The notes below the pieces were generated by a model, which was given only the letters and a program-made list of their open reading frames with translations, made no database searches and had not been told where the DNA came from. From Rudanella lutea DSM 19387 (lineage in GTDB: Bacteria; Bacteroidota; Bacteroidia; Cytophagales; Spirosomataceae), in NCBI RefSeq assembly GCF_000383955.1, contig NZ_KB913013.1, positions 2,710,694-2,774,693 on the forward strand: a DNA stretch of 64,000 nt, given 5' to 3'. Of the stretch, positions 1,332-62,384 are shown one piece after another. Position numbers and translations under genes: made by a program. How positions within the stretch are numbered: position 1 is the first letter of the stretch; each line of letters starts with the position of its first letter.

Positions 1332-1440
1332 AGGGGGAGAAAAGTGGGAAAGGGAGGAAAGGGACGCAAGCGCGGCAAACCCTTCCTCCCTTTCCTCCCT
1401 TCTCCCTTTCCTCCTTTCCTCCCCCCTTCCTACCTTTCCT
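1332..1440. repeat. Octad inverted-repeat element R1 (purine arm / pyrimidine arm)
   Basis: The left arm (1332-1365) is almost pure purine and built on GGGAAAGG-like words. The right arm (1379-1440) is almost pure pyrimidine and reads as 8-base words such as TTCCTCCC and TTTCCTCC repeated about seven times. The arms are complementary and face each other across a 13-base loop. The element lies between convergent genes and contains the last codons and stop of the epimerase. Two strands of such strongly biased composition could also form H-DNA. Confidence 0.8.
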
Positions 1441-1831
1441 GACACAATTCAACCAACACCCCGTTGGTGCCTTTGGGATGCAGAAAGCAAACCAGCTTGT
1501 TGTCGGCTCCGAGCTTGGGGGTTTCGTTGAGCAGCGTAAAGCCCTCGTTCCGAAGCCGTTCCATCTCAGCCACAATATCATCGACCTCAAAGGCGATGTG
1601 ATGAATTCCCTCGCCTTTTTTCTCGATAAACCTGGCGATAGGACTGCTGGGATCAGTGGCTTCGAGCAGCTCTATCTTGGTTTGGTTGACCCGAAAAAAT
1701 GAAGTCGTTACGTTTTCTGACTCTACCGTTTCTGCTTTGTAGGGGGCTACATTGAGCAACTTCTGAAAGAGTTCGTTGGACTGGGTCAGACTCCGGACGG
1801 CAATGCCAATATGTTCGACGTTGGTCAGCAT
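1430..1831 (-). CDS. mce: Methylmalonyl-CoA epimerase
   Basis: A 133-residue single-domain protein of the glyoxalase/VOC superfamily. It would interconvert (2R)- and (2S)-methylmalonyl-CoA in the propionyl-CoA/succinyl-CoA pathway. Metal-ligand motifs are in place: HIGIAV near residue 7, GEGIHHIAFEV near residue 75 and VLVEL at the C-terminus. Length matches the family. The final residues (CQER) and the TAG stop lie inside the right arm of repeat element R1, so the arm is partly coding. No mutase gene is adjacent. Confidence 0.93.
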   Translation of the reverse strand: MLTNVEHIGIAVRSLTQSNELFQKLLNVAPYKAETVESENVTTSFFRVNQTKIELLEATDPSSPIARFIEKKGEGIHHIAFEVDDIVAEMERLRNEGFTLLNETPKLGADNKLVCFLHPKGTNGVLVELCQER

Positions 1832-1882
1832 GTTTCGTTTTCAAAAAATAGATAAAACCGGACTGTGCGTTCGGTAATGAAC

Positions 1883-1912
1883 TTTACAAGCCGGGCAAAA
1901 GTTAGTATTTTG
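1883..1912 (+). promoter_or_regulatory. Possible Bacteroidota-type promoter for the Fe-S carrier gene
   Basis: TTTA at 1883-1886, 19 bases, then TATTTTG at 1906-1912. This approximates the TTTG-N19-TAnnTTTG consensus of the Bacteroidota primary sigma factor. It lies about 70 bases before the start codon of the 1981 gene. Match is imperfect at both boxes. Confidence 0.4.
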
Positions 1913-1980
1913 AGACTGGATAACGAATTCCGGCAGGAGCTTTATCCCGTCTACACGTTTCATAATTCATTGACACAGCG

Positions 1981-2307
1981 ATGGTAACTGTATCAGAAAG
2001 CGCTAAGAATAAGATTGTTGAACTCCGTCAGAAAGACGGGTTGACCGACGAACACGCTATCCGGGTAGGTGTACAGGGCGGAGGTTGCTCGGGCCTTATG
2101 TACGATCTTCAGTTCGACGCTACGCAACAGCCATCCGACCATCTGGTGGAGGATAAGGGTATCAAGATTCTGGTAGATCGGAAAAGTCTGCTGTATCTGG
2201 CAGGCACCGAACTCGACTTTTCGGATGGGCTCAATGGCAAAGGTTTTCAGTTTAAAAACCCCAATGCCTCGCGTACCTGCGGCTGTGGCGAAAGCTTCTC
2301 GGTGTAG
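1981..2307 (+). CDS. HesB/IscA-family iron-sulfur cluster carrier
   Basis: A 108-residue A-type carrier that would accept Fe-S clusters from the scaffold and pass them to apo-proteins. The three family cysteines are present: one in GGGCSGLMY near residue 38 and two in the C-terminal TCGCGESF motif. Size is normal for IscA/ErpA/SufA. No other isc or suf gene is nearby, so it cannot be assigned to one subfamily. A probable promoter lies upstream and a strong terminator follows, so it appears to be transcribed alone. Confidence 0.93.
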   Translation: MVTVSESAKNKIVELRQKDGLTDEHAIRVGVQGGGCSGLMYDLQFDATQQPSDHLVEDKGIKILVDRKSLLYLAGTELDFSDGLNGKGFQFKNPNASRTCGCGESFSV

Positions 2308-2344
2308 GCTACTTCGAACTCATACAAGCCCGTTTTCGGGTATG

Positions 2345-2372
2345 AAAGACCGCCCTGACGCGGTCTTTTTTT
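2345..2372 (+). terminator. Rho-independent terminator after the Fe-S carrier gene
   Basis: Perfect 9-bp stem AAAGACCGC / GCGGTCTTT with a 6-base loop, followed by a run of T. Confidence 0.88.
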
Positions 2373-2463
2373 GTGCCTTTATGGACCATCGCGCCGGGAT
2401 TTTGTAATTATGCACCCTAACGGCCGCCCGTTGTCTATCCTGTTTACCTATACGCTCCTACCT

Positions 2464-3042
2464 ATGTCTGCATCGACTGCCAAACCCGTGAGTTATTCGC
2501 GGACCACCCTCACCGAACTCATGATCCCGGCCTACGCCAACTTTGGCGGTAAAATCCACGGCGGCACCCTGCTGTCGCTGATGGACAAAGTAGCCTACGC
2601 CTGTGCGGCTAAACACGCGGGCGAGTACTGCGTGACGGTTTCGGTCGATGGGGTCAATTTTCGGCAACCGGTTGAGGTGGGCGAGCTGGTTTCGCTCATG
2701 GCGTCGGTTAATTACGTCGGTCGCACCTCGCTGGTGGTAGGTATTAAGGTGGTAGCCGAAAACGTGAAAACGGGCGTTAGCAAACACACCAACACCTCGT
2801 ATTTTACGATGGTGGCCAAAGACGAAACGGGCAAGCCGACCGAAGTGCCCCCGCTCCTGCTCGAAACGGCCGAAGACGCCCGCCGGTTTCTGGAAGCCCT
2901 GAAACGACGCGAAATGCGGACCGACTTCGCCGAGCATTTCGACAACGCCCGTAACCGGATGTTGCTCCCCGAAAATATACACGCCCTCAGTACCGAGCGC
3001 TGCCGGTTATCGCCCGATCTGGAGCAGCTACTACACCCATAA
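2464..3042 (+). CDS. Acyl-CoA thioesterase, hotdog fold (YciA/ACOT type)
   Basis: A 192-residue protein with the hotdog-fold signature of acyl-CoA hydrolases: ANFGGKIHGGTLLSLMD with the buried helix, then VDGVNFRQPVEVGELV and VGRTSLVV. It hydrolyses an acyl-CoA to free acid and CoA; chain length cannot be told. I start it at 2464 (MSASTAKP); the frame is open upstream but that part overlaps the preceding terminator and has no domain similarity. A charged C-terminal tail of about 45 residues follows the domain. Confidence 0.88.
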   Translation: MSASTAKPVSYSRTTLTELMIPAYANFGGKIHGGTLLSLMDKVAYACAAKHAGEYCVTVSVDGVNFRQPVEVGELVSLMASVNYVGRTSLVVGIKVVAENVKTGVSKHTNTSYFTMVAKDETGKPTEVPPLLLETAEDARRFLEALKRREMRTDFAEHFDNARNRMLLPENIHALSTERCRLSPDLEQLLHP

Positions 3043-3049
3043 CACACAA

Positions 3050-3082
3050 AGGGTCGGCCCTACCGAAGTAAGACCGACCCTG
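3050..3082. terminator. Bidirectional terminator between convergent genes
   Basis: Stem AGGGTCGG (3050-3057) / CCGACCCT (3074-3081) between the thioesterase (+) and the NTF2-like lipoprotein (-). T-run is poor on both strands. Confidence 0.6.
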
Positions 3083-3101
3083 TACAGGCCTGATGGCCTT
3101 A

Positions 3102-3578
3102 TTATCGTTTAGCCACCACCGGCAACCCTTCGAGTTGCGCGTAGCTTAGCTTCCAGGAGTTGTCGGCGGCTTTTTTCCAGAGCAGGATAAAATTACCCTT
3201 GCCTACACCACCCGGTTCCTGCGGGCTATCGGGTAGCACATCGACCGAGTACGTACCGGCTTCATAGGCCGTTTGGACGTCTACCGCTGAGGTCACCGCG
3301 TAGGTTTTCAGATCACTCAGCGTCGGGAGGGTTTCACGAACCCACTTCTGCGACACTTCGGCCTTACCCGTAAAGTGGGTATTGCCCTGCAAAAAGTGAA
3401 CATCGTCGGCCAAGAAACTCGTGATCTTCTCACTGTCTTTACTATTCCAGGCCTCAATAAACTGCCGGTTTAGGTCTTTTACATCAACGGCGTCGCCTGA
3501 TTTTGTACAGGCCGACAAAAGGGCTACCATCACCCAGATCGGCAAAAATGCCTTTATAAATTTCAGATTCCGTATCAT
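3102..3578 (-). CDS. NTF2-like (SnoaL/DUF4440-type) lipoprotein
   Basis: A 158-residue protein with a lipoprotein signal peptide; the lipobox is LLSAC, placing the lipidated Cys near residue 24. The mature part has the NTF2-like pattern: DLNRQFIEAWNSKD, ITSFLADDVHFL, then beta strands ending in WKLSYAQLEG. Members bind small ligands or act as minor enzymes; no catalytic set is evident, so only fold and periplasmic-side location are supported. It stands alone between a convergent gene and a codirectional glycine-zipper protein. Confidence 0.82.
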   Translation of the reverse strand: MIRNLKFIKAFLPIWVMVALLSACTKSGDAVDVKDLNRQFIEAWNSKDSEKITSFLADDVHFLQGNTHFTGKAEVSQKWVRETLPTLSDLKTYAVTSAVDVQTAYEAGTYSVDVLPDSPQEPGGVGKGNFILLWKKAADNSWKLSYAQLEGLPVVAKR

Positions 3579-3601
3579 GATTTCAGTGTGTTTTGCAGCC
3601 C

Positions 3602-3622
3602 GGCCCGATCATCTGTCGGGCC
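3602..3622. terminator. Inverted repeat, possible terminator of the glycine-zipper gene
   Basis: A 7-bp perfect stem GGCCCGA / TCGGGCC with a 7-base loop, about 60 bases past the glycine-zipper stop on the minus strand. No T-run follows, so the terminator call is weak. Confidence 0.35.
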
Positions 3623-3679
3623 GAGCCTTGTGAACGTACTAAGAATGGATGCAGACAGCTCTGCCTGCGATAGAGAGGC

Positions 3680-4312
3680 TTACCAGCTCTTCCGACGAAC
3701 TTCGGAGTCGGGATAGGCCGACGTTGGGTCGCCAAATGTCGGGTTGAGCAAGTAGCCCGTGTTGGTCATATACGTCGGCTGAGCCGGTGCCAGTGTAGCG
3801 GGCGTTGTGCCATTGGCCGCGTACGCAGCCCCGGCCACCGCAGCGCCCGCTCCTACCCCAGCCGCTGCTGCCAGCGCGGGAGCTTTTTTACCCCGAGCGA
3901 GTAACACCCGGTTGGCTTGTCCGTACGATTCGTTGTCGGCACGGCGGGCGGCTGCAATCCGCTCCTCTTCGGCCCGGCGAGCCGCGAGGGCAGCGGCCGC
4001 TTTGCGCTTGTTGTCGATCCGCTTACCGATGGCATATCCGGCACCGGCACCTACGGCACCACCTACAACCCCACCCACTACGCGGTTACGCTTGTGGATG
4101 ATAGCACCCGCTGCAGCACCAGCGGCACCACCAATTACGGCACCCTTAGCCTGGGGGCTCCACTGACGGGGGCTCCGTAGCGGCTGAATAACCTGGGCTT
4201 CGGCAAATGAAGAGAAAAGAACGATGGCTAATAAGGCCAGTATCGAGATCGTCCGGAACGTCGTTCCGGTACCGATTTTTTGTTGCTTGTTATTCATGGC
4301 TCTAGTGTTCAT
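3680..4312 (-). CDS. Exported glycine-zipper protein (YMGG-like)
   Basis: A 210-residue protein with an N-terminal signal peptide ending SSFAEAQ. Two glycine-zipper segments follow (AVIGGAAGAAAGAII and VVGGVVGGAVGAGAGYAIG, roughly residues 55-100). Then comes a short Ala/Arg/Glu-rich helical stretch with a third Ala/Gly-rich hydrophobic run near residue 150. Glycine zippers of this sort pack in or on membranes in envelope lipoproteins and stress proteins. I use the ATG at 4312; a TTG lies two codons upstream and another ATG five codons downstream. Function unknown. Confidence 0.75.
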   Translation of the reverse strand: MNTRAMNNKQQKIGTGTTFRTISILALLAIVLFSSFAEAQVIQPLRSPRQWSPQAKGAVIGGAAGAAAGAIIHKRNRVVGGVVGGAVGAGAGYAIGKRIDNKRKAAAALAARRAEEERIAAARRADNESYGQANRVLLARGKKAPALAAAAGVGAGAAVAGAAYAANGTTPATLAPAQPTYMTNTGYLLNPTFGDPTSAYPDSEVRRKSW

Positions 4313-4750
4313 GTCCAATTGAGTACTGCGTCACTGTTTGACTCTTTGACAGGTAATCAGACCAATGGTTTATTTAATCACCCGAGAAAGTCAATTAATC
4401 TGAACACGGCAATAACGAATTTGTTTGGACATGAATTGCCCGTACTTAGGCAATCTGAGCGTGCGATTTTGGCCCAAAATACCCCTATTTACCCATTTTA
4501 GGGGCAAGGGGCCGTAAATAGAAACCCCGCCAAAAACGACCCAACGGGCCAGTCTCGACGGGGTAAAAAAATAATAATCTCCCTTAAAATTTATTCATTT
4601 CCCGGTCTACGTTTCCCGGAATAATCTAAAAAGGCAGGCTCTATTTCGGGCTGGTTTTAGCTGGCAATGTGTAGCCAAATAATGAACTCGTTGGGCCGAC
4701 AATTCTGCACGCCCGGGCGGACAGTCATAATTATCTACCGGCCCCGATCC
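4313..4750. other. Intergenic region with one weak hairpin
   Basis: 438 bases between the glycine-zipper start and the priA stop, both on the minus strand. I see no convincing ORF. A hairpin ACCCCG (4524-4529) / CGGGGT (4559-4564) could serve as priA terminator on the minus strand. The promoter of the glycine-zipper gene should be here but I find no clear TAnnTTTG match. Confidence 0.5.
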
Positions 4751-7291
4751 TTACAGACAGTCGACATCGACTACGATAGATACCTGCCGGAGTCCTTTGT
4801 CAGTCAGAATATCGTTGATCCGATCGCGGATAAATTCTTTCACCGCCTTCATGTTGACCGGGCCGCGCTCAATCTTAATCAGAATATCGTACAGAAACTG
4901 ATTACGGATTCGCTCCACCAACGGCTGTTCGGGGCCCAGCACCCGACTACTGCCGAGGGTATCGGTCAGTTCGGCCGCCAGTCGTTCGGCCGCCTGCTTG
5001 CTGATGTGCTGCTCCGGGTGCCGTACCGTCAGTTTGATCAGCCGCGAGAAAGGCGGATAGTTAAAATCCTGCCGTTCGCGAATCTCTTCATCGTACAGCC
5101 CCCGGTAGTCGTTGGTGATAATTTTCTGGAGAATCAGTTGCTGCGGGTTGCTCGTCTGAATCAGTACCCGCCCCTGCCGACCACCCCGCCGACCCGCGCG
5201 CCCGCTCACCTGAGTAAGCATCTGAAACGCCCGCTCCGTCGCTCTGAACTCAGGAAAATGGATGATTCGGTCTGCATCAAAAATACCCACCAAACTCACC
5301 TTGTCGAAATCGAGCCCTTTGGTAATCATCTGCGTGCCCACAAGCATATCGACGTTACCCTGTTCAAACTCCTCAATGATCTGCTGATACGCATTTTTGG
5401 CCCGGGTTGTGTCGAGGTCCATGCGCAGAATCCGGGCTTCCGGAAACAGAATCTGGAGTTGGTCTTCGAGTTTTTCGGTGCCAAAACCAATTGTTTTTAC
5501 TTTGGTGGAGCCACAAACTGGGCAAGTGCGGGGCACCTCTTCTTTATAGCCGCAGTAGTGGCAGCGCAATTCGCCCACCTTCATGTGGTAGGTCAAACTT
5601 ACATCGCAGTTGGGGCACTCGGCCGTCCAGTCGCAGTCTTCGCACTGCATATAGGGCGAGTATCCACGCCGGTTCTGAAACAGGATACTCTGCTCTTTTC
5701 GCTCCAGATTATCGCCCAAGGCGGTCAGCAAAGCCGATGTAAATTCATTTTTCATCGTCTTTTGCTTCTTCTCCACCTTTGTATCCACGAGGGTGATCTG
5801 GGGTAGCGTCGCATCTCCAAACCGCTGAAACAGCTCTACCAGCCCATAACGACCCTGCTGAGCCTGATAATAACTCTCCAGGGAGGGCGTGGCCGATCCC
5901 AGCAATACTTTGGCCTGCTGCCATTGGGCCAGCATCATGGCTACATCGCGGGCGTGATAGCGCGGAGCCGGGTCATGCTGTTTGTACGAGGTTTCGTGCT
6001 CTTCATCGACGATAATCAGACCAAGATTGTCAAATGGCAGAAACACGGCCGACCGTACCCCCACCACGAACTGATACTGCCCCGATACCACCCCTTTCCA
6101 GACCTCTACGCGCTCATTGTCGGAAAACTTAGAGTGGTAGATACCCATTTTATCACCAAAAACGCGCTGAAGCCGCACCACAATCTGGGTGGTCAGGGCG
6201 ATTTCGGGAAGCAGATACAGCACCTGCGAGCCACTTTCGAGAGCCTGCTGAATCAGGTTAATGTAAACCTCCGTTTTGCCACTACCCGTAATACCGTGCA
6301 GCAACACGATATTTTGCGTACCAAACTTGGCCATAATGGCTTCAGACGCCTGTTGCTGAGCCTCGGTCAGGCGAATTTCGACGGTGGGCGCGAGGTTATC
6401 AGAAAAGCGAGGCTGAATGACCTCGAACGTTTCAAAAATCCCGTTTTTTATCAGAGTAGTCATCGACGACTGCGAGATTTCGTCGTCCTGATTCAGCACC
6501 GTTTTGTCGAGTCCCCGACTGTTGAGTGCCGAATTGAGCAGCACCGGTACGTGGCGCAGGTAGCGCATCACCACCTCCTGCTGTTTGGGCGATTTGTCCA
6601 GTTTACGAATCAGGTCCAGCAACGCTTCCCGATCTTCGTAAGCGGCACCAAGCCTTACCTTCCGAATCATTTTCGGCACGTATTTCTCCCGCACCTCCTC
6701 AAAAACAATCACCGCCCGCTTCCCAACGAGCGCCTTAATCACGGTCGGCACGTTGAGTTCGCCCACCAGCCGCCCCAGTTCTTCGTAGGTGAGGGCGGGG
6801 TGTTTTTTAAGCTCTTCGAGCAGGGTGACTTCTTCTGGGCTGAGCAACTCCGGATAGTCAAAATCGGGGTTGTACTGCACCTTCGACTGGCTCGAAATCT
6901 TGAGCCCTGAAGGCAGAGCCACATTCATCACCTCGCCAATGCAGCACATGTAATAGTCGGCCATCCAGCGAAACAGTTCGAGCTGATAGCTGGTAATCAG
7001 CGGATAATCATCCAGAAGCTCAAGGATATACCGTGCCTGATACCGGGGCGGAGGGGTATTATGAAGCCTTGCGACAATCGCCGTTAGTACACGACCGTCC
7101 TTTTTACCAAAGGGGACAATCACTCTGGCACCAATTTTGATGACCTCGACCATCGTTCTCGGAACCCTGTATGTAAACAGGTTTGGAATAGGCAAAGGCA
7201 ATATTAAATCCGCGAAGTAAGTAACCTCTTCTTCGTGCGAATGGGAAAATACCAAGTCTGGCAGGCTAAGTTGATTATCTGGCTCACTCAC
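4751..7291 (-). CDS. priA: Primosomal protein N' (replication restart helicase PriA)
   Basis: An 846-residue superfamily-2 DNA helicase that binds stalled forks and reloads the replisome. The N-terminal 3'-end-binding domain is followed by Walker A (GITGSGKTEVY, near residue 335) and Walker B (DEEH). A zinc-binding insert with paired cysteines (CEDC, CPNC, CHYC, CPVC, about residues 549-594) comes next, then helicase motifs TQMITKGLDF and SGRAGR. Length is slightly longer than the roughly 730 residues of E. coli PriA. The start is GTG at 7291; no ATG occurs before residue 47. It stands as a single gene with a divergent neighbour. Confidence 0.97.
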   Translation of the reverse strand: MSEPDNQLSLPDLVFSHSHEEEVTYFADLILPLPIPNLFTYRVPRTMVEVIKIGARVIVPFGKKDGRVLTAIVARLHNTPPPRYQARYILELLDDYPLITSYQLELFRWMADYYMCCIGEVMNVALPSGLKISSQSKVQYNPDFDYPELLSPEEVTLLEELKKHPALTYEELGRLVGELNVPTVIKALVGKRAVIVFEEVREKYVPKMIRKVRLGAAYEDREALLDLIRKLDKSPKQQEVVMRYLRHVPVLLNSALNSRGLDKTVLNQDDEISQSSMTTLIKNGIFETFEVIQPRFSDNLAPTVEIRLTEAQQQASEAIMAKFGTQNIVLLHGITGSGKTEVYINLIQQALESGSQVLYLLPEIALTTQIVVRLQRVFGDKMGIYHSKFSDNERVEVWKGVVSGQYQFVVGVRSAVFLPFDNLGLIIVDEEHETSYKQHDPAPRYHARDVAMMLAQWQQAKVLLGSATPSLESYYQAQQGRYGLVELFQRFGDATLPQITLVDTKVEKKQKTMKNEFTSALLTALGDNLERKEQSILFQNRRGYSPYMQCEDCDWTAECPNCDVSLTYHMKVGELRCHYCGYKEEVPRTCPVCGSTKVKTIGFGTEKLEDQLQILFPEARILRMDLDTTRAKNAYQQIIEEFEQGNVDMLVGTQMITKGLDFDKVSLVGIFDADRIIHFPEFRATERAFQMLTQVSGRAGRRGGRQGRVLIQTSNPQQLILQKIITNDYRGLYDEEIRERQDFNYPPFSRLIKLTVRHPEQHISKQAAERLAAELTDTLGSSRVLGPEQPLVERIRNQFLYDILIKIERGPVNMKAVKEFIRDRINDILTDKGLRQVSIVVDVDCL

Positions 7292-11212: not shown

Positions 11213-11225
11213 GTGTTATGGGGCT

Positions 11226-12270: not shown

Positions 12271-12316
12271 CGGGCGTAGGGCTCATGGCAAAACCGTGGG
12301 CCCTACGCCGTTTTTA
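12271..12316. terminator. Bidirectional terminator between ypdA and a convergent gene
   Basis: 10-bp stem GGCGTAGGGC (12273-12282) / GCCCTACGCC (12300-12309) followed by TTTTT. The stop codon of the convergent minus-strand gene falls in the T-run. Confidence 0.85.
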
Positions 12317-29173: not shown

Positions 29174-29274
29174 TCTAATGAGCGAATTAGCGATTGAGTG
29201 ATTGAGCGAATTGGCTGACGCAAGAACCAATCTCGGCACTCACCAATCACTCATTCGCTCTTTCACTCTTTTGT
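29174..29274. repeat. Octad inverted-repeat element R2
   Basis: Left arm (29178-29217) of 8-base words such as ATGAGCGA, TTGAGTGA and TTGAGCGA. The right arm (29237-29273) carries the complement, with words like AAGAGCGA on the minus strand. It lies between convergent genes and supplies the last codons (THR-LYS-GLU) and stop of the dipeptidase. Confidence 0.82.
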
Positions 29275-30550: not shown

Positions 30551-30648
30551 AAAGAAAAATAAAGAACGAAAGAGCGGAAGTAGGCACCAGAAGATGGTTT
30601 TACCCGATGCCAGAACGCTTTCGCTCCATCACTCTTTGGCTCTTTAGT
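30551..30648. repeat. Octad inverted-repeat element R3
   Basis: Left arm 30551-30582 (words like CGAAAGAG), right arm 30613-30648 whose reverse complement gives AAAGAGCC and AAAGAGTG. It lies between divergent genes and ends directly before the ubiE start codon. Words are shared with R2 and R15. Confidence 0.72.
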
Positions 30649-30649
30649 T

Positions 30650-31375: not shown

Positions 31376-31383
31376 TTCTGAAA

Positions 31384-31532
31384 TGGATAATGAATAATGA
31401 AGAGTGTACAATGTACAGTTTACAATGTTTAATGAATAATGAAAAATCGGTCCGCGGTCGTGGGCTACGGGTTTCTACCAACAGCATTGTCTGTGCACTG
31501 TTCATTATTCATTGTTCATTATTCATTAATAG
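31384..31532. repeat. Heptad inverted-repeat element R4, partly translated
   Basis: Left arm (31384-31446) is nine consecutive 7-base words related to GAATAAT. The right arm (31501-31532) is four words related to TTCATTA, its complement. The loop is about 54 bases. The porT start codon lies in the left arm and the right arm encodes the hydrophobic core of the PorT signal peptide. Confidence 0.85.
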
Positions 31533-32365: not shown

Positions 32366-32440
32366 GGGAGTTTAGCTCAGTTGGTTCAGAGCATCTGCCT
32401 TACAAGCAGAGGGTCGGGGGTTCGAATCCCTCAACTCCCA
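32366..32440 (+). tRNA. tRNA-Val (anticodon TAC)
   Basis: Full cloverleaf: acceptor GGGAGTT / AACTCCC, D-arm GCTC/GAGC, anticodon stem TCTGC/GCAGA with loop CTTACAA (anticodon TAC, valine), T-arm with GTTCGAATC. Discriminator A at 32440; CCA is not encoded. Followed by a terminator. Confidence 0.97.
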
Positions 32441-32447: not shown

Positions 32448-32476
32448 AAAGCGAGTCAAATTGACTCGCTTTTTTT
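32448..32476 (+). terminator. Terminator after tRNA-Val
   Basis: Perfect 12-bp stem AAAGCGAGTCAA / TTGACTCGCTTT, single-base loop region, T-run to 32476. Confidence 0.88.
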
Positions 32477-32563
32477 ATTTAGCTCAGTTGGTTCAGAGCA
32501 TCTGCCTTACAAGCAGAGGGTCGGGGACGGTCGGCCGCTGCCGTTCGAATCCCTCAACTCCCA
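32473..32563 (+). pseudogene. Broken tandem copy of tRNA-Val
   Basis: A copy of the preceding tRNA displaced by 107 bases. From TTTAGCTC (32478) through the anticodon arm it is identical. The first acceptor strand is replaced by the T-run of the preceding terminator, so only two of seven acceptor pairs can form. A 16-base GC-rich insertion (32527-32542, containing CGGCCG) interrupts the T-stem. The 3' end is intact. It should not fold as a tRNA. Confidence 0.88.
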
Positions 32564-32569
32564 CAAGAG

Positions 32570-32600
32570 AAAAGCGAGTCGTTTTGACTCGCTTTTTTTA
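32570..32600 (+). terminator. Terminator after the tRNA-Val pseudogene
   Basis: 10-bp stem AAAGCGAGTC / GACTCGCTTT with T-run; a near copy of the terminator at 32448, so the duplicated unit included the terminator. Confidence 0.85.
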
Positions 32601-38541: not shown

Positions 38542-38631
38542 AGGGGTTTTCAGTTTAGAGTTTACAGTTTAGTGTGGGTAATGCCAACAACGAACTGAAA
38601 ACCGAAAACCGAAAACTGCAAACTTGTAAAC
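38542..38631. repeat. Heptad inverted-repeat element R5 (rpsS-rplV)
   Basis: Left arm 38546-38574: words GTTTTCA, GTTTAGA, GTTTACA, GTTTAGT. Right arm 38593-38631: complementary words around AACCGAA and AACTGCA. It fills the gap from the rpsS stop to the rplV ATG. Confidence 0.88.
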
Positions 38632-39888: not shown

Positions 39889-39987
39889 TTAAGCGATAAG
39901 TGATGAGTTATGAGCGATGAGCGAAAGAACTTAAGTCAAACGCTTACTCATAACTCTTAACTCATAGCTCATAACTTCTTAATAAAG
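39889..39987. repeat. Heptad inverted-repeat element R6 (rpsC-rplP)
   Basis: Left arm 39891-39927: GAGTTAT, GAGCGAT, GAGCGAA words. Right arm 39951-39980: complement of GAGTTAT/GAGCTAT/GAGTTAA. It spans the full gap between rpsC and rplP. Confidence 0.88.
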
Positions 39988-47964: not shown

Positions 47965-48053
47965 GTTTTCAGTTTTCAGTTTGAGTCTTTCAGCTTTCCA
48001 AAAACTGCTGGCTTATAACTGAAGACTGACGACATTAAACTGTAAACTTTCAA
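47965..48053. repeat. Heptad inverted-repeat element R10 (infA-rpmJ)
   Basis: Left arm 47965-47999: GTTTTCA twice, GTTTGAG, TCTTTCA. Right arm 48000-48053 contains complements such as AAAACTG, AAGACTG and AAACTG. It fills the gap from infA to the rpmJ ATG. Confidence 0.85.
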
Positions 48054-48176: not shown

Positions 48177-48554
48177 ATGGCACGTATTGCAGGTGTTGAT
48201 ATTCCGGACAAGAAGCGTGGCGAAATTGCGCTGACGTACATCTTCGGAATTGGTCGGAGTACCGCACAGAAAATTCTGTCGGGTGCTGGTATCAGCCTCG
48301 ATAAGAAAGCAGGCGAATGGACCGACGAAGAGTCGAGCGCCATCCGTAACGCGATCAGCAACGATTTTAAAGTTGAAGGTGCGCTGCGCTCAGAGGTTCA
48401 GTTGAACATCAAACGTTTAATGGACATCGGTTGCTACCGGGGTCTGCGGCACCGGAAAGGTCTGCCGGTTCGTGGTCAGCATACGAAGAACAACTCTCGT
48501 ACGCGGAAAGGCAAGCGTAAGACGGTTGCTAACAAGAAGAAAGCGACTAAATAG
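48177..48554 (+). CDS. rpsM: Ribosomal protein S13
   Basis: A 125-residue 30S head protein: [15 protein letters not shown] start, [14 protein letters not shown] near residue 20, and the basic end [14 protein letters not shown] then [12 protein letters not shown]. Starts six bases after rpmJ. Confidence 0.98.
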
Positions 48555-48626
48555 TAGCAGTAAGCAGTAGCAGTTGCAGTATTAACAAACTGCCACTGGC
48601 ATTCTGCCACTGCCAACTTCAAACAA
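48555..48626. repeat. Heptad-like inverted-repeat element R11 (rpsM-rpsK)
   Basis: Left arm 48555-48584 carries GCAGT words every 6-7 bases. The right arm 48588-48618 carries ACTGCCA, CTGGCAT, TCTGCCA, CTGCCAA, a clear 7-base rhythm. It fills the gap. Confidence 0.8.
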
Positions 48627-49022
48627 ATGGCACAAGCAAAACGCAAAGACAAGGCGAAGAAGCGCATTGTAGTGGTTGAATCGGTTGGCCAGGTACACAT
48701 CAAGGCTACCTTCAACAACATCATTATCTCAATCACCAACCTGAACGGTCAGGTAATCTCATGGGCATCGGCTGGTAAGATGGGCTTCAAAGGCTCAAAG
48801 AAAAACACTCCGTATGCCGCTCAGACTGCCGCTCAAAACTGTGCTGCTGTAGCCCACGATCTGGGTATGCGCAAAGCAGAGGTGTTCGTGAAAGGACCGG
48901 GTGCAGGCCGTGAGTCAGCTATCCGTACTATTCAGAACTCGGGTATCGAGGTAACTACAATCCGCGACATTACTCCGATGCCCCACAACGGCTGTCGGCC
49001 ACCCAAACGCCGTCGCGTATAA
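48627..49022 (+). CDS. rpsK: Ribosomal protein S11
   Basis: A 131-residue 30S platform protein: [18 protein letters not shown] near residue 23, [12 protein letters not shown] near residue 90 and the conserved end [12 protein letters not shown]. Confidence 0.98.
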
Positions 49023-50839: not shown

Positions 50840-50923
50840 AAAACTAAGGAGAACGGAGAAAAGGAGTAAAGAGAAAAGATTGCTTTCCTCTTTACCTTCC
50901 TCCTCCTTCCTCCCTCTACCAAA
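50840..50923. repeat. Octad inverted-repeat element R12 (rpoA-rplQ)
   Basis: Left arm 50843-50878 of purine words (AAGGAGAA, CGGAGAAA, AGGAGTAA, AGAGAAAA); right arm 50883-50919 of pyrimidine words (CTTTCCTC, CCTCCTCC, TTCCTCCC). It fills the gap and resembles R1. Confidence 0.85.
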
Positions 50924-52739: not shown

Positions 52740-52744
52740 TACAG

Positions 52745-52777: not shown

Positions 52778-52805
52778 TCATCTACACCGATACCTATTCT
52801 GGAAC

Positions 52806-54410: not shown

Positions 54411-54428
54411 AACGAATGTCTTGATGAA

Positions 54429-55199: not shown

Positions 55200-56801
<1,602 letters not shown>

Positions 56802-56903
56802 TGGATAATGCACAATGAATAGTGTGTAATGCACACGTTGAGTTGGAGCTCCCTACTCAGTACGCATTGCCCATTATTCATTGTGCATTACACCGTATTC
56901 ATT
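56802..56903. repeat. Heptad inverted-repeat element R13 (eno-divIC)
   Basis: Left arm words GGATAAT, GCACAAT, GAATAGT, GTGTAAT, GCACACG (56803-56837). The right arm (56869-56903) is the complement of GAATACG, GTGTAAT, GCACAAT, GAATAAT. The arm words match but are shifted, so several pairing registers are possible. Confidence 0.88.
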
Positions 56904-57215
56904 ATGAAGCGTCTCCTCCGATATGGCCGTAACTTTTACGTAGCCACAGGCGTTGGCCTGCTGGTCTGGATGTTGGCGTTTGATGCAAACGACTTGTTTG
57001 CGCAGTTTCGCAACTGGTGGACACTCCGGGACCTGGAAGAAAGCAAAGCCTTTTACCAGTCGGCCATCAAACGGGTACAGAATCAGCGTAAACTTGTATT
57101 GGGTACCGATCAGCTCCGGGAGAAGTACGCCCGCGAGCGGTATCTCATGAAAAAGCCAACCGAAGACGTGTACGTGCTGGTTGACGAAAATAACGAACCG
57201 ATAGAAAAACAGTGA
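56904..57215 (+). CDS. DivIC/FtsB-like septum formation initiator
   Basis: A 103-residue protein with a short cytoplasmic N-terminus (MKRLLRYGRNFY), one membrane helix (VATGVGLLVWMLAF) and a coiled coil rich in Leu/Glu/Lys (LRDLEESKAFYQSAIKRVQ). YLMKKPTEDVYVLVDE follows, as in the FtsB/DivIC family of divisome proteins. Bacteroidota often place this gene after eno. The start is ATG at 56904, the end of R13. Confidence 0.85.
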   Translation: MKRLLRYGRNFYVATGVGLLVWMLAFDANDLFAQFRNWWTLRDLEESKAFYQSAIKRVQNQRKLVLGTDQLREKYARERYLMKKPTEDVYVLVDENNEPIEKQ

Positions 57216-57317
57216 ACAGTCATCAGTGAACAGTAAACAGTAAACAGTAGGCAAGTGTATATTGCTAATTGTTCGTTACTAACTGTTCGCTGCTCGTTGT
57301 TAACTGTTCACTGAAAA
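57213..57317. repeat. Heptad inverted-repeat element R14 (divIC-phosphatase)
   Basis: The left arm begins inside the stop codon: GAACAGT, CATCAGT, GAACAGT, AAACAGT, AAACAGT. The right arm (57266-57312) is complementary, with GAACAGT and GAACAAT words. It ends just before the phosphatase ATG. Confidence 0.9.
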
Positions 57318-57815
57318 ATGCTTTCCGTTCTCTTCGTTTGTCTGGGTAACATTTGCCGGTCACCGGTTGCCGAAGGTATCTTCCGTAGTTTGGTAGCTCA
57401 GCGAGGACTGGAAAACGAAATCAGCTGCGACTCGGCGGGCACCTCTTCGTATCATCTGGGTGAATTACCCGACCGGCGAACCCGCCAAAACGCACAGGAA
57501 CACGGCCTGAACCTCACCCATCGGGCACGCCGGATGATCGGCGAAGACCTCGCTCAGTTTACGTATTTCGTAGCAATGGACGAGGCCAATTTCGACGCGG
57601 TGCTGAAACTCAGTCAGCGGAGCCTCGGGCTGGTGAGCGACGAAAACATCTTTCTCCTTCGTGAATTTGATCCGGTTGTTGGTGATGACCCCAACGTGCC
57701 CGACCCTTACTACGAGGGCCCCGAGGTATTCGAAGAGGTTTACCAGATTACCTACCGCTGCTGTGAGCAGCTGCTCAATTATTTGCAGGAAATACACCAG
57801 TTAAATGGCGAATGA
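57318..57815 (+). CDS. Low-molecular-weight protein tyrosine phosphatase
   Basis: A 165-residue enzyme with the P-loop CLGNICRS (nucleophile Cys8, Arg14) and the general-acid loop VPDPYYEGP near residue 130. In bacteria such phosphatases often act on tyrosine kinases of capsule or exopolysaccharide synthesis; no such gene is adjacent. It lies between two repeat spacers, R14 and R15. Confidence 0.94.
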   Translation: MLSVLFVCLGNICRSPVAEGIFRSLVAQRGLENEISCDSAGTSSYHLGELPDRRTRQNAQEHGLNLTHRARRMIGEDLAQFTYFVAMDEANFDAVLKLSQRSLGLVSDENIFLLREFDPVVGDDPNVPDPYYEGPEVFEEVYQITYRCCEQLLNYLQEIHQLNGE

Positions 57816-57905
57816 GTGAATGGCGAAAGAGCGGTAGTATATTTTACTCTTTGCCGAGCGCGGCCCGCACTCTTTCACTCTTTCACTCTTTCACTCTTTT
57901 GCTTT
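57814..57905. repeat. Octad inverted-repeat element R15 (phosphatase-gpmI)
   Basis: The right arm (57870-57901) is four near-perfect copies of CACTCTTT. The left arm (57814-57838) carries complementary AGTGAATG and AAAGAGCG words. It ends directly before the gpmI start codon. Confidence 0.88.
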
Positions 57906-59486
57906 ATGGAAAAAAACGTCATACTTCTCATTCTCGACGGTTGGGGCATTGCTACGCAGCTCGAACGGTCGGCGCTGGCAGCCGCCAAAACGCCTTTTAT
58001 CGACTCGCTTTTCACCCAATACCCTCATAGCCGACTCGAAGCGTCGGGACTGGCCGTTGGCCTGCCTGCGGGTCAAATGGGCAACTCCGAAGTGGGGCAT
58101 ATGAACCTGGGGGCCGGTCGTATTGTGTATCAGGATCTGGTTAAGATCAACAAAGCCGTTGAAGAACACACCCTCGACACCGAGCCGGTGCTGGTCGATG
58201 CACTCAATTACGCTAAGCAAAACGGCAAAAAGGTACATTTTATCGGCCTGGTGTCTGACGGGGGCGTTCACTCGCACATCGATCACCTGAAGGGACTGTT
58301 ATCTATTGCCCATGCTAAAGGACTGAGCGACGTGTACGTGCATGCCTTCACCGACGGACGCGATACCGATCCTAAGAGTGGCCTCGGTTTTCTGAGCGAT
58401 CTGCAACAACACTTAGCCGCAACAACGGGAAAACTGGCCAGTGTAACAGGGCGATTCTACGCCATGGACCGCGACAATCGCTGGGAGCGAGTACGGCAGG
58501 CATACGATGTGATGGTACGCGGTTCGGGTACGCCCGTGGGAGCGGCCAACGTATTGCAGGCTATTCAGGCCTCATACGACGAAGGGGTCACCGACGAGTT
58601 CATTAAGCCAATTGTGGTCGCGCAGGAAGATGGCTCACCCGTAGCCACCATCGACGAAGGCGACGTCGTGCTGTGCTTCAACTTCCGCACCGACCGGGGC
58701 CGCGAAATCACGATCGCGCTCACGCAGCGTGATATCCCAGAGCAGGAAATGCAAAAACTGAATTTGTACTACCTGACCCTGACCAACTACGATAACGATT
58801 TTACCAACGTCCATGTCATCTACGACAAAGACAACCTCAACAATACCCTTGGCGAGGTAATCGCTGCTGCCGGCCGGACCCAGATTCGTATTGCCGAAAC
58901 AGAAAAGTACCCGCACGTGACCTTCTTCTTCTCGGGTGGCCGCGAGGAGCCTTTTGCCGGAGAAAAACGGTTGCTGTGCCAGTCGCCTAAGGAAATGACG
59001 GTGTATGATGCCGATGGCAACGCGACGGTTATTCCGGTAAAGACCTACGATCAGAAACCCGAAATGGCCGCCTACGATATTCGCGACGCCATTGTACCTG
59101 AGCTACAAAACAAAACGGCCAACTTTATCTGTCTCAACTTTGCCAACACCGATATGGTGGGCCATACGGGCGTATTTGAAGCCGTGGTGAAGGCAGCCGA
59201 GGCCGTTGATGCCTGCACGCAGGCCGTTACCGAGGCCGCTTTAGCCAGCGATTATTCGGTCATTATCATTGCCGACCACGGGAATGCCGATTACATGGTG
59301 AACGACGATGGTACACCCAACACGGCGCATACCACAAATCTGGTACCTTGTATTTTGGTCGACAATCAGTTGAAACCCGCTCTGCACGACGGCAAGCTCG
59401 CCGATGTAGCACCTACAATTCTGGAGCTGATGGGTATTGCCAAACCGAGTGAAATGAACGGCCAGAGTTTGATCCAACAAGCTTGA
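57906..59486 (+). CDS. gpmI: 2,3-bisphosphoglycerate-independent phosphoglycerate mutase
   Basis: A 526-residue metalloenzyme interconverting 3- and 2-phosphoglycerate. The first metal-ligand motif is LLILDGWG; the catalytic Ser lies in GQMGNSEVGHMNLGAGR near residue 60, and the second ligand set is IADHGNADYM near the end. The frame continues 30 codons upstream, but those residues are the translated repeat R15, so I start at MEKNVILL (57906). A strong terminator follows. Confidence 0.97.
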   Translation: MEKNVILLILDGWGIATQLERSALAAAKTPFIDSLFTQYPHSRLEASGLAVGLPAGQMGNSEVGHMNLGAGRIVYQDLVKINKAVEEHTLDTEPVLVDALNYAKQNGKKVHFIGLVSDGGVHSHIDHLKGLLSIAHAKGLSDVYVHAFTDGRDTDPKSGLGFLSDLQQHLAATTGKLASVTGRFYAMDRDNRWERVRQAYDVMVRGSGTPVGAANVLQAIQASYDEGVTDEFIKPIVVAQEDGSPVATIDEGDVVLCFNFRTDRGREITIALTQRDIPEQEMQKLNLYYLTLTNYDNDFTNVHVIYDKDNLNNTLGEVIAAAGRTQIRIAETEKYPHVTFFFSGGREEPFAGEKRLLCQSPKEMTVYDADGNATVIPVKTYDQKPEMAAYDIRDAIVPELQNKTANFICLNFANTDMVGHTGVFEAVVKAAEAVDACTQAVTEAALASDYSVIIIADHGNADYMVNDDGTPNTAHTTNLVPCILVDNQLKPALHDGKLADVAPTILELMGIAKPSEMNGQSLIQQA

Positions 59487-59523
59487 ACGTCTTACCACTA
59501 AAGTACGTTTAGTCGAATACAAA

Positions 59524-59559
59524 TGGCCCTCTGCTATTGAAGTAGAGGGCCCTTTTTTA
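59524..59559 (+). terminator. Terminator after gpmI
   Basis: Stem GGCCCTCT / AGAGGGCC (59525-59532 with 59544-59551) followed by T6. Confidence 0.9.
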
Positions 59560-59566
59560 CCGTTTT

Positions 59567-60136
59567 ATGACACGTATTCTCCTTGTTTTTGCCGCTATAC
59601 TTTTGGTTTCATGTGATAACTCAAACGAGCAAACTGTAGCCAAACCTGTGTACTTCGATGTAGCCGGGTACGTGTCGAGGCAAATTGAGAAACTGGCCGC
59701 TCAAAAGCCAACGGTAGAGAAAAACGCCTTCATCAGCGGAAAAACGAATCTGCAAACCACTGCCCAAATCGACTGGGCCAAAGAGCTGGAACTATTTAAG
59801 CAAGCCGATATAAACAAGCCAGCGTTTCGAACCAGTTACACCATTACCCGCCCCGACTCACTCACGTACGAGTACACGCTGAAATCGACTGAAGAGAAAC
59901 TCACCGTACGGTCGCTGCTGGTGCGGCTCGACTCCACAACGCGCCAGCCGGTTCAGATCCAGGCCATTCTGAAAACCGAAAACCCATTGTACATGTCGGA
60001 GCGCCGACTCCTGCTGATTAGCGGCTCCGAGGCCGGGCAGGGATGGGGTGTGCGTAGTTACCAGATTGAAGGTTTCGAGCAGCTTACCTACTTCGACCGG
60101 AACAATTTCCGGATAAACGGGCATATCGCCCAGTAA
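59567..60136 (+). CDS. Lipoprotein of unknown function
   Basis: A 189-residue protein with lipobox LLVSC (Cys near residue 16). The mature part begins with an Asn/Glu/Lys-rich stretch, then a DVAGYVSRQIEKL helix. A beta-rich C-terminal half follows (YEYTLKSTEEKLTVRSLLVRL in part; GVRSYQIEGFEQLTYF). I do not recognise a domain. It stands alone after the gpmI terminator. Confidence 0.75.
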   Translation: MTRILLVFAAILLVSCDNSNEQTVAKPVYFDVAGYVSRQIEKLAAQKPTVEKNAFISGKTNLQTTAQIDWAKELELFKQADINKPAFRTSYTITRPDSLTYEYTLKSTEEKLTVRSLLVRLDSTTRQPVQIQAILKTENPLYMSERRLLLISGSEAGQGWGVRSYQIEGFEQLTYFDRNNFRINGHIAQ

Positions 60137-60369
60137 CCTAACACCTGTTTTCTGACTCATTATCACGGCCTTCCATTAGGAAGGGCCCAGGATCTCTGTA
60201 CGCTTTGGTCGGCAAGTTTTGGTACCCTATCGGTGCAAAACCCTTCTACATCGATAGTTACTTGATTGGTTGAATAGAACTATAGTTATTTGCTCCTGAC
60301 TGGAAGATGTCGCAGTAACGACGTATCCAGATAGTGTATCTGTTTTTTTTCACCTTTTCTATCATTCCT

Positions 60370-60963
60370 ATGAAACGACTGTCGCTTCTTGTTGCTGTTG
60401 CCCTTAGCTCACTGAGCACGTATGCCCAGACCTGGACCTTAGACAAATCACACAGCCGCCTTGGCTTTACAGTTACCCACCTGATGCTGACAGAAGTAGA
60501 CGGTAACTTCAAAACCATTGATGCCACCGTGACCTCGTCGAAGCCCGATCTGTCGGACGCCGTTTTCGAACTGACTGCCGACGTAAACAGCATCAACACC
60601 GAGAATGAGCGTCGGGATGGCCACCTGAAAAGCGCTGACTTCTTCGACACGGCGAAGTTTCCCACGCTGACGTTCAAGAGCACGTCGCTGAAGAAAGTAG
60701 AGGGTAAGAAATACAAACTCATGGGCGACCTGACCATGCATGGTGTAACCAAGCCGGTTACGCTCGATCTGGTTATGAACGGGCCTATCACTCAGGAGAC
60801 GCCCCGTGGTAAATCAGAAAAAGTTGGAATTAAAGTTAGTGGTACCCTGAAGCGGTCAGATTTTGGTGTTGGTTCCAGCTCAACGGCTGTTGTCAGCGAC
60901 GAGGTTGAACTGCGCGGTGCGGCCGAGTTTGCGAAGCAAAACGCTGTAACGGAGAAAAAATAA
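60370..60963 (+). CDS. YceI-family periplasmic lipid-binding protein
   Basis: A 197-residue exported lipocalin-like protein; signal peptide ends SLSTYAQ. Family hallmarks: WTLDKSHSRLGFTVTHLM at the mature start, DFFDTAKFPTLTFKST near residue 100 and GDLTMHGVTKPVTL. YceI proteins bind isoprenoid-type lipids. I start at MKRLSLLV (60370). A 233-base gap precedes it, with a bulged hairpin (60167-60187) but no clear promoter. Confidence 0.93.
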   Translation: MKRLSLLVAVALSSLSTYAQTWTLDKSHSRLGFTVTHLMLTEVDGNFKTIDATVTSSKPDLSDAVFELTADVNSINTENERRDGHLKSADFFDTAKFPTLTFKSTSLKKVEGKKYKLMGDLTMHGVTKPVTLDLVMNGPITQETPRGKSEKVGIKVSGTLKRSDFGVGSSSTAVVSDEVELRGAAEFAKQNAVTEKK

Positions 60964-60993
60964 GGGTGAATTTCGGTTTCTATACTCACACGC

Positions 60994-61026
60994 AAAAAAG
61001 GGGACTCAACTGAGTCCCCTTTTTTT
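60994..61026. terminator. Bidirectional terminator, YceI / TPM operon
   Basis: Near-perfect long stem GGGGACTCA / TGAGTCCCC extended by A6/T7, 2-base loop, between convergent genes. Confidence 0.92.
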
Positions 61027-61048
61027 ATCTTGTCAGCTCTTGCTGTTG

Positions 61049-61864
61049 CTAGTAATCGCCACCGGCACCACCACCTCCGAAGCTACCGCCCCCGAAGCCG
61101 CCAAAGTCGGAGCCACCTCCGCCACCTCCGCCCCAGCTACCCGATGAGCTACCCCATCCGGTGTAGGTGGTGTACGGAATAAACCAGCCTCCGCCACCTC
61201 CGCCCCGGTAGCGGTTGCCCCCACCCCGGCGGTTTATCCAGCTAAAGAGAATGATAACCGCCAGAATCAGGAAAATCCAGACAAAAATATCACCCCCATC
61301 GTCTTCACTGGCCGGTTCGGACTTGTACTCACCCTGTGCCCGCTTGATAATCTCGGTGGTAGCTGCGTCTAACCCCTGAAAGTATTGCTGCTGCTTAAAC
61401 GCCGGTGCAAGGATATTATCGACAATTCGGTTGGCTACCGCGTCGGGGATTGCCCCTTCGAGGCCGTAACCCGTGGCAATGTATATCTTACGGTCGCCAG
61501 TGGCCCAGGCTAACACCAGGCCATTGTTTTTACCTTTCTGCCCTACCCCCCATTTGCGGCCCACCTGAAAAGCAAAGTCACCGATGGGATACGGTTCGGT
61601 CGTTTTGACAATGACGAGGGTGATCTGCGTCGAGGTAGAATCGTTGTATCGGCGCAGCTTTTCTTCCAGAGTCGCCCGTTCGCCGGGTTGCAGAATACCC
61701 ACGTAGTCATTGACCAGACGGGGCGGATTGGGCCGGTCGGGGATAACATCGTTGGGGTTGCCTGTTTGCGCACGCACCGCCGTGCTCACCGTCAGGAGCA
61801 AAGCCAGTAGCCAGCATAGCCCAAACAGGCGTCGATTACGGAATATAGGATCGTTCACAAGCAA
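61049..61864 (-). CDS. TPM-domain membrane protein with Gly-rich tail (YgcG type)
   Basis: A 271-residue protein: signal peptide (ends AVRAQ), TPM domain (about 40-175; VNDYVGILQPGER, FAFQVGRKWGVGQKGKNNG, ATGYGLEGAIPD). One membrane helix follows (FVWIFLILAVIILFSW near 195), then a Gly/Ser/Trp-rich tail. No ATG exists at the start: TTG at 61864 directly follows the upstream stop (TGA-TTG), or GTG at 61858 is used. It is the last gene of the LemA-TPM-TPM operon, a widespread envelope module of unclear role. Confidence 0.88.
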   Translation of the reverse strand: MLVNDPIFRNRRLFGLCWLLALLLTVSTAVRAQTGNPNDVIPDRPNPPRLVNDYVGILQPGERATLEEKLRRYNDSTSTQITLVIVKTTEPYPIGDFAFQVGRKWGVGQKGKNNGLVLAWATGDRKIYIATGYGLEGAIPDAVANRIVDNILAPAFKQQQYFQGLDAATTEIIKRAQGEYKSEPASEDDGGDIFVWIFLILAVIILFSWINRRGGGNRYRGGGGGGWFIPYTTYTGWGSSSGSWGGGGGGGSDFGGFGGGSFGGGGAGGDY

Positions 61865-62290
61865 TCAGCTAAACGAAATATCGTCGGAGAGTTCATTGGA
61901 ATCGTCGGCCAGCCGGGGAAAATAGTGCTTCAGTTGCTCACCGGCCCGGGCTATACCACCAGCCAGCCCTTCGGCATACTGCCCCTGGGCAAAGTGCCGA
62001 CGCATCAGTTCTTTGGTTTCGTCCCAGAACCCGGCGGGCACCCGCGCATCAATTCCCTTATCGCCAATGACCGCAAACTTCCGATCATCAACGGCCAGGT
62101 AAAAAAGTACGCCGTTTTGTTCACGGGTTTGGTGCATACCTAAATGCGCAAACACCTCAATAGCCCGCGCCACCGGGTCGCCCGTCGGGCAAGGGCCTTC
62201 AATATGGACCCGAACCTCACCCGATGTGGCTAACTCAGCCTGCTTGATAGCGGCTATGATCTGTTGTTGCTGTTCGGCAGGGATCTGCAT
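61865..62290 (-). CDS. Small TPM-domain protein
   Basis: A 141-residue TPM-domain protein without signal peptide: SGEVRVHIEG near residue 20, VFAHLGMHQTREQNGVLFYLAVDDRKFAVIGDKGID in the middle (given in part) and a C-terminal helix. It is sandwiched between lemA and the larger TPM gene, abutting the latter. Role in the module unknown. Confidence 0.87.
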   Translation of the reverse strand: MQIPAEQQQQIIAAIKQAELATSGEVRVHIEGPCPTGDPVARAIEVFAHLGMHQTREQNGVLFYLAVDDRKFAVIGDKGIDARVPAGFWDETKELMRRHFAQGQYAEGLAGGIARAGEQLKHYFPRLADDSNELSDDISFS

Positions 62291-62384
62291 GGCTTAATGC
62301 GTAATGTGTAATGATGAATGCGTAATGAAAGAAGGTCAATCGTTGTGAACGTTCTTACGCATTACGCATTCATCATTCCGCATT
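62291..62384. repeat. Heptad inverted-repeat element R16 (TPM-lemA)
   Basis: Left arm 62297-62331: AATGCGT, AATGTGT, AATGATG, AATGCGT, AATGAAA. The right arm 62353-62384 gives AATGCGG, AATGATG, AATGCGT, AATGCGT on the minus strand. It abuts the stop of lemA. Confidence 0.92.

Follow-up and report, generated by a model that had tools for sequence, protein, structure and literature searches.

Why should the spacers between bacterial genes, including those of ribosomal protein operons, harbor palindromes whose two arms are each built from a short word repeated every 7 or 8 nt? This question arises from a 64,000-nt stretch of the Rudanella lutea DSM 19387 genome (hereafter the window; G000:C1:2710694-2774693 in a genome of 6.55 Mb), for which the original prediction, made from the sequence alone, had described a family of such heptad and octad palindromes. 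We followed these elements through the host genome (G000), its sister species (G001), a congener (G002), and further Bacteroidota. Our answer, to which we assign a probability of about one half, is that DNA replication both generates these intergenic hairpin repeats and renews them.

The window was scanned for hairpins with ungapped arms, a pairing span of ≤220 nt, and arms repeating at lag 7 or 8. This returned 15 matches, compared to 1, 0, 0, 0, and 1 in five dinucleotide-shuffled windows. Of these matches, 14 are heptad or octad elements, while the fifteenth (12273-12309) is a short, GC-rich, terminator-like hairpin; the window total amounts to 14 firm elements and one weak element (48555). 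When loci were tested singly, with 200 shuffles for each spacer, 13 of 14 reached p ≤ 0.01; locus 48553-48636 gave p = 0.114, yet its ortholog in the sister species is clearly of the heptad type. The period of 7 or 8, which had been called strict, was confirmed for most spacers, with lag-7 identities of 0.47-0.65 in 10 of the 12 window spacers measured and an autocorrelation peak at lag 8 (0.52) in spacer 29177, but the term is too strong for spacer 1332, a purine/pyrimidine tract with its peak at lags 8-9.

The same signal was found in a wider sample, consisting of 211 spacers with a length of ≥100 nt from 464 kb. Runs at lag 7, lag 8, and lag 14 occurred in 30, 14, and 28 of these spacers, respectively, while shuffled means were 0.4, 0.6, and 1.2, and coding slices yielded 2, 2, and 0. 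A joint test for hairpin and period was positive in 33 of the 211 spacers, compared to 0-1 in each of five shuffles. Shuffled controls had been proposed as a check along with the original prediction, and they reveal a clear excess in both the window and the 211 spacers; with 14 elements against 0-1 matches per shuffled window, intergenic palindromes with period-7/8 arms are real. Under strict criteria, 95 elements (74 with period 7 and 21 with period 8) were identified in 1.264 Mb of the host genome, with a median arm of 29 nt and a median loop of 30 nt, which would scale to roughly 490 elements genome-wide.

Sorted by eye, the words of these elements fall into the classes AATGNNN, GTTTNNN, CAGTGAA/CAACGAA, GATGAGT, AAGGAGA, and TTAGACG, with GAGTGAAA for the octads, and most words, likewise judged by eye, are without G-tracts. 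The claim of a distinct word for every locus could not be upheld, as words form shared classes: when each 5' arm of the 95 elements was compared to the 3' arms of all loci, its own partner was strictly the best match for just 43, and the median best score for an arm from another locus equaled the median self score (both 19). In line with this, two elements searched against the whole host and sister-species genomes had class relatives at many loci. Alignment by expectation-maximization gave the heptad consensus Y-A-R-T-K-W-A for the host, with an information content of 3.16 compared to at most 1.93 in column-permuted controls. At p < 0.05, this motif transferred to 62% of 37 in the genus, 32% of 25 in the family, and 8% of 25 in distant Bacteroidota, and the latter failure rules out a universal heptad motif.

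A search spanning the loops revealed that most elements other than those resembling miniature inverted-repeat transposable elements (MITEs) share their arms, not their loops, with other loci. TGACGC/GCTGACGC was found at the apex of 9 of the 95 listed elements (e.g., window 29177-29271), weakly above shuffles; as a shared loop motif, GCTGACGC was rejected as too weak, being present in 5 of 81 non-MITE loops and at 62 places in the whole sample. Furthermore, the loops at L132 14978-15161 and L137 8700-8919 have a longer repeat in common, with GCGGATTAC units of a 9-nt period.

How the two arms remain matched was addressed by comparing 198 host spacers in 264 kb, 189 of which could be matched to a sister-species ortholog. 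An element in one or both species was found in 31 slots: 16 in both, 10 only in the host, and 5 only in the sister species. Among these 31 slots, six were assigned by eye as word swaps (#20, #23, #129, #138, #146, and #147), and spacer 31376-31530 represents an additional swap in the sister species. Five slots (#5, #26, #44, #153, and #160), also assigned by eye, represent gains of dispersed MITE-like repeats. At #129, both arms changed in the sister species while the congener has the host word, with flank identities of 98.5% and 97.0% across 200 nt. Since flank identity at the six swapped slots is ordinary (mean 91.7%, compared to a mean of 93.3% for the 16 conserved slots and a median of 92.3% for all spacers), foreign DNA blocks do not account for the swaps. 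For two swapped-in elements, a near-identical donor was absent from the whole host and sister-species genomes, the best other matches being 86% over 65 nt and 78% over 74 nt.

Among the 16 ortholog pairs, which were sorted by eye, 11 aligned at >60%. Their paired positions comprise 249 unchanged, 29 changed on one side, and 12 gapped; of the one-sided changes, 16 lose pairing, 9 gain it, and 4 do neither. Two-sided changes kept Watson-Crick pairing in 6 cases and were of another kind in 1, with 4 double Watson-Crick changes found at #80 and 2 at #148. Slot #20, which was left out of the 11-pair total at 57% identity, exhibits 11 two-sided, pairing-preserving changes and a single one-sided loss. 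Furthermore, loops were found inverted at #6, #148, and #65 (inverted versus direct match 0.68 vs 0.43, 0.82 vs 0.59, and 1.00 vs 0.80), the last being a weak case owing to its short loop. The argument that tandem slippage alone cannot keep two arms matched is thus strengthened, as matched two-arm changes and inverted loops are what inter-arm copying predicts. A regular, base-by-base co-variation of the arms, however, is contradicted by the 29 one-sided versus 6 double Watson-Crick changes.

A memory of the word also extends beyond the species. For 13 window slots and 15 other genomes (130 pairs), heptad similarity between genera at orthologous slots was 0.493, compared to 0.454 (SD 0.011) when slot labels were permuted within genomes (p = 0.002); without the slot after the IF-1 gene, it dropped to 0.473. 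This excess of similarity over permuted slots supports descent in place with drift. Some element slots are 2-4 nt long in congeners.

The two arms are not equivalent in composition. The 5' arm is C-poor and G-richer, with G exceeding C in 185 elements and C exceeding G in 20 across four sets (host 80:10 with 5 ties, genus 39:3, family 28:1, and other Bacteroidota 38:6), while non-periodic intergenic hairpins gave 69:56. Eight of the 10 host exceptions were assigned by eye to the CAACGAA-like class, in which G and C are nearly balanced. In a test matched for composition, we searched 296 Bacteroidota genomes for three GTTTNNN units, a gap of 8-38 nt, and three AAACNNN units, as well as for the reverse order, with counts that include overlapping registers. 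This resulted in 188 GTTT-first matches versus 0, from 17 genomes and 5 of 140 genera, with one genus accounting for 13 genomes and 159 matches. The corresponding ratio of AATGNNN-first to CATT-first matches was 56:1; the 56 originate from 8 genomes of 8 genera, 45 of them from the host alone, and the sole CATT-first palindrome (G136:C43:66063-66118, unit GGTCATT/AGTCATT) still has G > C in its 5' arm. The polarity is therefore strong and usually G-first but not a law, since real C-first elements, for example in genomes G211 and G282, rule out an absolute one. Stop codons in all frames were rejected as its cause, the excess being restricted to arms of the host (240 vs 206) and the genus (115 vs 98) and missing in the family (53 vs 64) and distant (119 vs 136) sets. 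Avoidance of Rho is not favored either, because convergent spacers show the polarity as strongly (23:2).

Replication could account for these features in four steps. Polymerase slippage would favor tandem units of 7-8 nt, as in a hypothesis quoted, for heptad units, in PMC4692102. Template switching, with one freshly synthesized arm serving as template for the other, would create and maintain the inverted pair, equalize its arms, and sometimes flip the loop, a step supported by the two-arm changes and loop inversions. The word would then drift within its gene-to-gene slot and spread to both arms, leaving related but non-identical words in orthologous slots of different genera and sometimes a whole element rewritten, which the comparisons between species and genera support. 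Finally, the G-word on the 5' arm may reflect directional copying; for example, once it has replicated the C-rich arm, the polymerase may halt on the G-rich template arm that follows. Elements would be tolerated at the 3' ends of genes and excluded from promoter-bearing divergent spacers.

An origin in replication is favored because the enzymes that might be suspected instead do not track the distribution of the elements. This distribution is sporadic: when 20-80 kb were sampled from each of 30 relatives, elements turned up in 12 and were missing from 18, with none in shuffles, and 26 of 80 named records have at least one match at looser cut-offs, applied without a shuffle control. Y1 transposases (RAYT-type) number 0 in the dense genomes G004 and G022 and 4-8 in G013, G023, G024, and G038, where no element was found, so RAYT was rejected as the agent. 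Telomerase-like writing by a reverse transcriptase was rejected as well, as no RVT_1 match was obtained in G000, G001, G002, G006, G007, G010, and G020, all of which bear elements. Loss of the hairpin nuclease SbcCD as a permissive cause is not compatible with SbcD matches above the cut-off in G001, G002, G004, G006, G007, G010, G020, and G022; in the host, SbcD has only a partial match below the cut-off.

Several observations weigh against the replication model. Exceptions to the polarity are real, as CAAANNN elements are C-first, with 14 matches in 9 of the 296 genomes compared to 1 TTTG-first match, and some of the CAAA-first matches are unmistakable heptad palindromes whose 5' word is C-only (e.g., G211 and G282); GTAA-first and TTAC-first matches, the control columns of this search, are balanced at 5:5. 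The published pair-asymmetry argument predicts a T-A excess as well, whereas the 5' arm in the host is instead A-rich (0.40 vs T 0.22). Between the sister species, one-sided changes exceed matched double changes in the well-aligned pairs, and therefore one arm is not quickly corrected to the other. Copying confined to a single locus leaves class swaps unexplained, such as that from AAAGAGTG to AATGCGT at #147. Moreover, the ratios of G.U to A.C mismatches in elements and in ordinary hairpins do not differ significantly (p = 0.23), and two dispersed families related to these elements are mobile repeats that carry target duplications, so that mobility plays some part.

These families raise the alternative that the hairpins are decayed MITE-like copies inserting after genes, with word classes representing element families. 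One family is CAGTACTGGACATT..GTCCAGTACTG, a 100-bp repeat whose arms are heptads and which is dispersed throughout the host genome (e.g., L193-L220; query window:44875-44990). It measures exactly 100 bp in 23 of the 26 copies with both ends found, is flanked by matching direct repeats of ~8-12 nt in 16 of 26, and has been gained or lost between the sister species. The other has AATGTAAAATG arms and a loop that is common between its loci (L132 17720, L138 7219, L160 14841, L171 7630, L176 4678, L177 10381, and L178 11501); it is present in the host and missing in the sister species at #5, and the reverse is true at #26. Gains in one sister species only, at the five MITE-like slots, fit this alternative. 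We nevertheless consider it unlikely for the set as a whole, as most non-MITE elements have arms and not loops in common, swapped-in elements lack a near-identical donor, related words are kept in the same slots between genera, and Y1 transposase counts do not follow element density.

A functional role of the hairpins in RNA, acting in operon spacers or 3' untranslated regions on stability, processing, or translational insulation, would make pairing the selected trait and the heptads a by-product. Their placement agrees with it: with open reading frames (ORFs) taken from a simple greedy script rather than a gene finder, elements occur in 25 of 91 convergent, 58 of 317 co-directional, and 9 of 114 divergent spacers (p = 0.001), at a median distance of 4 nt from the upstream gene, and they recur in the same ribosomal-operon spacers across genera. 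Predicted RNA folding is also strong (median z -5.5 and median -33 kcal/mol for 60 elements). However, structural selection, one of two options put forward in the original prediction, should at RNA level leave an excess of G.U over A.C mismatches on the transcript strand, and for co-directional elements these were found at 110:104, 45:38, and 44:36, which amounts to 199:178 and is not a significant excess (p = 0.30), while other intergenic hairpins gave 191:141 (p = 0.007). Furthermore, congeners lack an element in several slots, where the spacer measures 2-4 nt, and purifying selection beyond that on other spacers was not seen, as median identity was 0.86 for element spacers (n = 16) and 0.90 for ordinary ones (n = 96). 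Intrinsic terminators were rejected because a T-run comes after fewer of the co-directional periodic elements (18 of 144) than of the other hairpins (60 of 283). Judged from such signals, an RNA role is neither shown nor excluded, and the copying model would not require one; as the explanation of the design, we deem it improbable. Even less probable is a role in DNA itself, as cruciforms or binding sites recognized by a replication or nucleoid protein through the heptad-spaced motif Y-A-R-T-K-W-A. The consensus does exceed composition and extends to the genus and, in part, the family, and pairing appears to act on DNA rather than RNA, whereas the motif does not carry to distant Bacteroidota and the sporadic distribution is unlike that of a core nucleoid function.

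The replication model can be extended to a bolder proposition, in which the replisome would continuously write and rewrite hundreds of palindromes of 7-8-nt units, polarity would be a fossil of the copying direction, the same process would lie behind the heptad palindromes of Bacteroidota, Xanthomonas, and Cyanobacteria, and the drift of words within slots would amount to a new, two-armed form of concerted evolution. We regard this as doubtful, and its odds have been lowered by the existence of genuine C-first elements. If the copying model is right, many bacterial intergenic hairpins that look, down to their compensatory changes, like conserved RNA structures might stem from DNA copying, and a DNA-level null model would be needed for such co-variation. 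Polarity would offer a simple, countable test, rewriting between species would make the rate measurable in a common, harmless laboratory organism, and scattered reports of heptamer repeats from several phyla would be linked.

Within the window, the placement in spacers of essential operons that had been described is correct for several elements, with contexts confirmed by Pfam for S19-L22, S3-L16, L6-L18, upstream of L15, after IF-1, S13-S11, RpoA-L17, and after enolase. GTTTNNN heptad palindromes lie between the ribosomal S19 and L22 genes (38546..38616), between those of L6 and L18 (43676..43761), and after the IF-1 gene (47969..48029). The S19-L22 spacer has just 3-4 nt in G002, G003, and Flavobacterium sp. 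SUN052, while the IF-1 slot holds related words in G000, G001, G002, G006, G020, G010, SUN052, and G022. A GATGAGT-type palindrome between the S3 and L16 genes (39892..39969) has an identical copy in the sister species; a GTTAGAC palindrome upstream of L15 (44893..44982) has an arm like that of the dispersed 100-bp repeat; and a GGAGAAA-type palindrome separates the RpoA and L17 genes (50848..50913), a spacer of 2 nt in the congener. The weak CAGTNNN element between the S13 and S11 genes (48555..48636; p = 0.114, as given above) is replaced by a GTTTTCA element in the sister species. AATGNNN palindromes were found after a ubiE-type gene (31388..31528), where the sister species differs in both arms and the loop, and immediately 3' of the enolase gene (56806..56890). 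They are accompanied by a CAGTGAA palindrome before a low-molecular-weight phosphatase gene (57192..57338; CAGTAGG type in the sister species) and an AATGCGT-type palindrome between LemA and TPM-domain genes (62302..62385). Octad palindromes comprise a GAGTGAWW type between convergent response regulator-cyclase and peptidase M19 genes (29177..29271), with its right arm rearranged in the sister species, an AAAGAG type between divergent genes (30557..30649), and one whose right arm is a perfect CACTCTTT x4 and whose ends overlap the ORF annotation (57779..57915). The least regular of the set, a purine-arm/pyrimidine-arm palindrome of lag 8-9, follows a LuxR-type response regulator gene (1330..1428).

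An Rfam search of the window returned two tRNA matches only: a good one at 32366-32440 and, adjoining it, a weak one (29.2 bits, 32478-32557) inside a 26-nt inverted repeat at 32448-32595. It should also be noted that ribosomal S3 of the window is 95-96% identical to that of the Rudanella sp. (L031) and SUN052 (L032) records, 96% in the latter case, which places the window with Rudanella relatives in Spirosomataceae, and that the SUN052 record is possibly misnamed; the same may apply to Cellulophaga sp. BC115SP (L058), which groups with Cytophagales S3 matches. The arms of the S19-L22 slot (CAGTTTACAGTTGGCAGTCTTCAG) are identical or nearly so in L040 (Siphonobacter) and G022 (L251), which suggests close kinship.

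The view that no family of this design had been described cannot be maintained. No description for Rudanella or Spirosomataceae was found among the best-ranked matches in the open-licence PMC literature; the design itself is shared by the GGGAATC pairs of Xanthomonas (PMC4692102) and by the P6b stem of the trnL(UAA) intron in Nostoc and Calothrix (PMC4476775). GGGAATC heptamers form convergent inverted pairs in 70 and 75 cases in two Xanthomonas genomes; if "convergent" is taken literally, the G-rich word would lie on the 5' side. They and the GGGGA(C/T)T heptamers of Nostoc have conserved and variable heptad positions and are intergenic, on average 28 nt from the upstream gene end and under-represented between divergent genes, and their gene pairs are constant while the sequence is highly variable between species (PMC4692102). 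The elements described here likewise consist of tandem 7-nt intergenic units (lag 7 dominant, lag 8 second), come as arrays paired in inverted, convergent orientation, are scarce between divergent genes (9/114), and lie near upstream gene ends (median 4 nt). In contrast to the single G-quadruplex-prone word per genome in Xanthomonas and Nostoc, with few inverted pairs in the latter (PMC4692102), many word classes coexist in one genome here, with periods of 7 and 8 nt and without the need for G-tracts, and the inverted pair is the rule within the selected set. The elements thus work like the Xanthomonas heptamers but, lacking the GGGAATC/G-quadruplex word, are not assigned to that family.

In P6b, a degenerate heptamer occupies both sides of the stem (class I TDNGATT, class II NNTGAGT), with replacement of the whole class in orthologs and 7-nt indels (PMC4476775), but this is one intron stem in a functional RNA of Cyanobacteria, compared to hundreds of intergenic loci here. 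TAACTGA direct repeats of Beggiatoaceae, Cyanobacteria, and some Bacteroidetes are intergenic, near ribosomal and other genes, and differ between strains mostly in 7-nt steps, with one indirect case among 169 sets (PMC4679880); the elements described here differ from them in their inverted arms and other words. Template switching at quasi-palindromes is documented to homogenize arms and to invert loops or spacers, with a possible pair asymmetry (PMC8794818, PMC8604942), which resembles the two-arm changes at #80 and #148 and the loop inversions at #6, #148, and #65, even though one-sided changes are more common here; there, it is described for existing stems and not for heptad arrays in spacers. 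With REP/RAYT palindromes and MITEs, the elements share their dispersed intergenic occurrence, and one related 100-bp repeat in the host has target duplications (16/26), but, unlike REP, the elements have no single conserved sequence, with arms common by class and loops mostly not, and the Y1 transposase does not track their density. What seems to be new is the combination of a many-word set in one genome, a measured polarity with exceptions, a memory of slots between genera, and the rewriting of whole elements between sister species.

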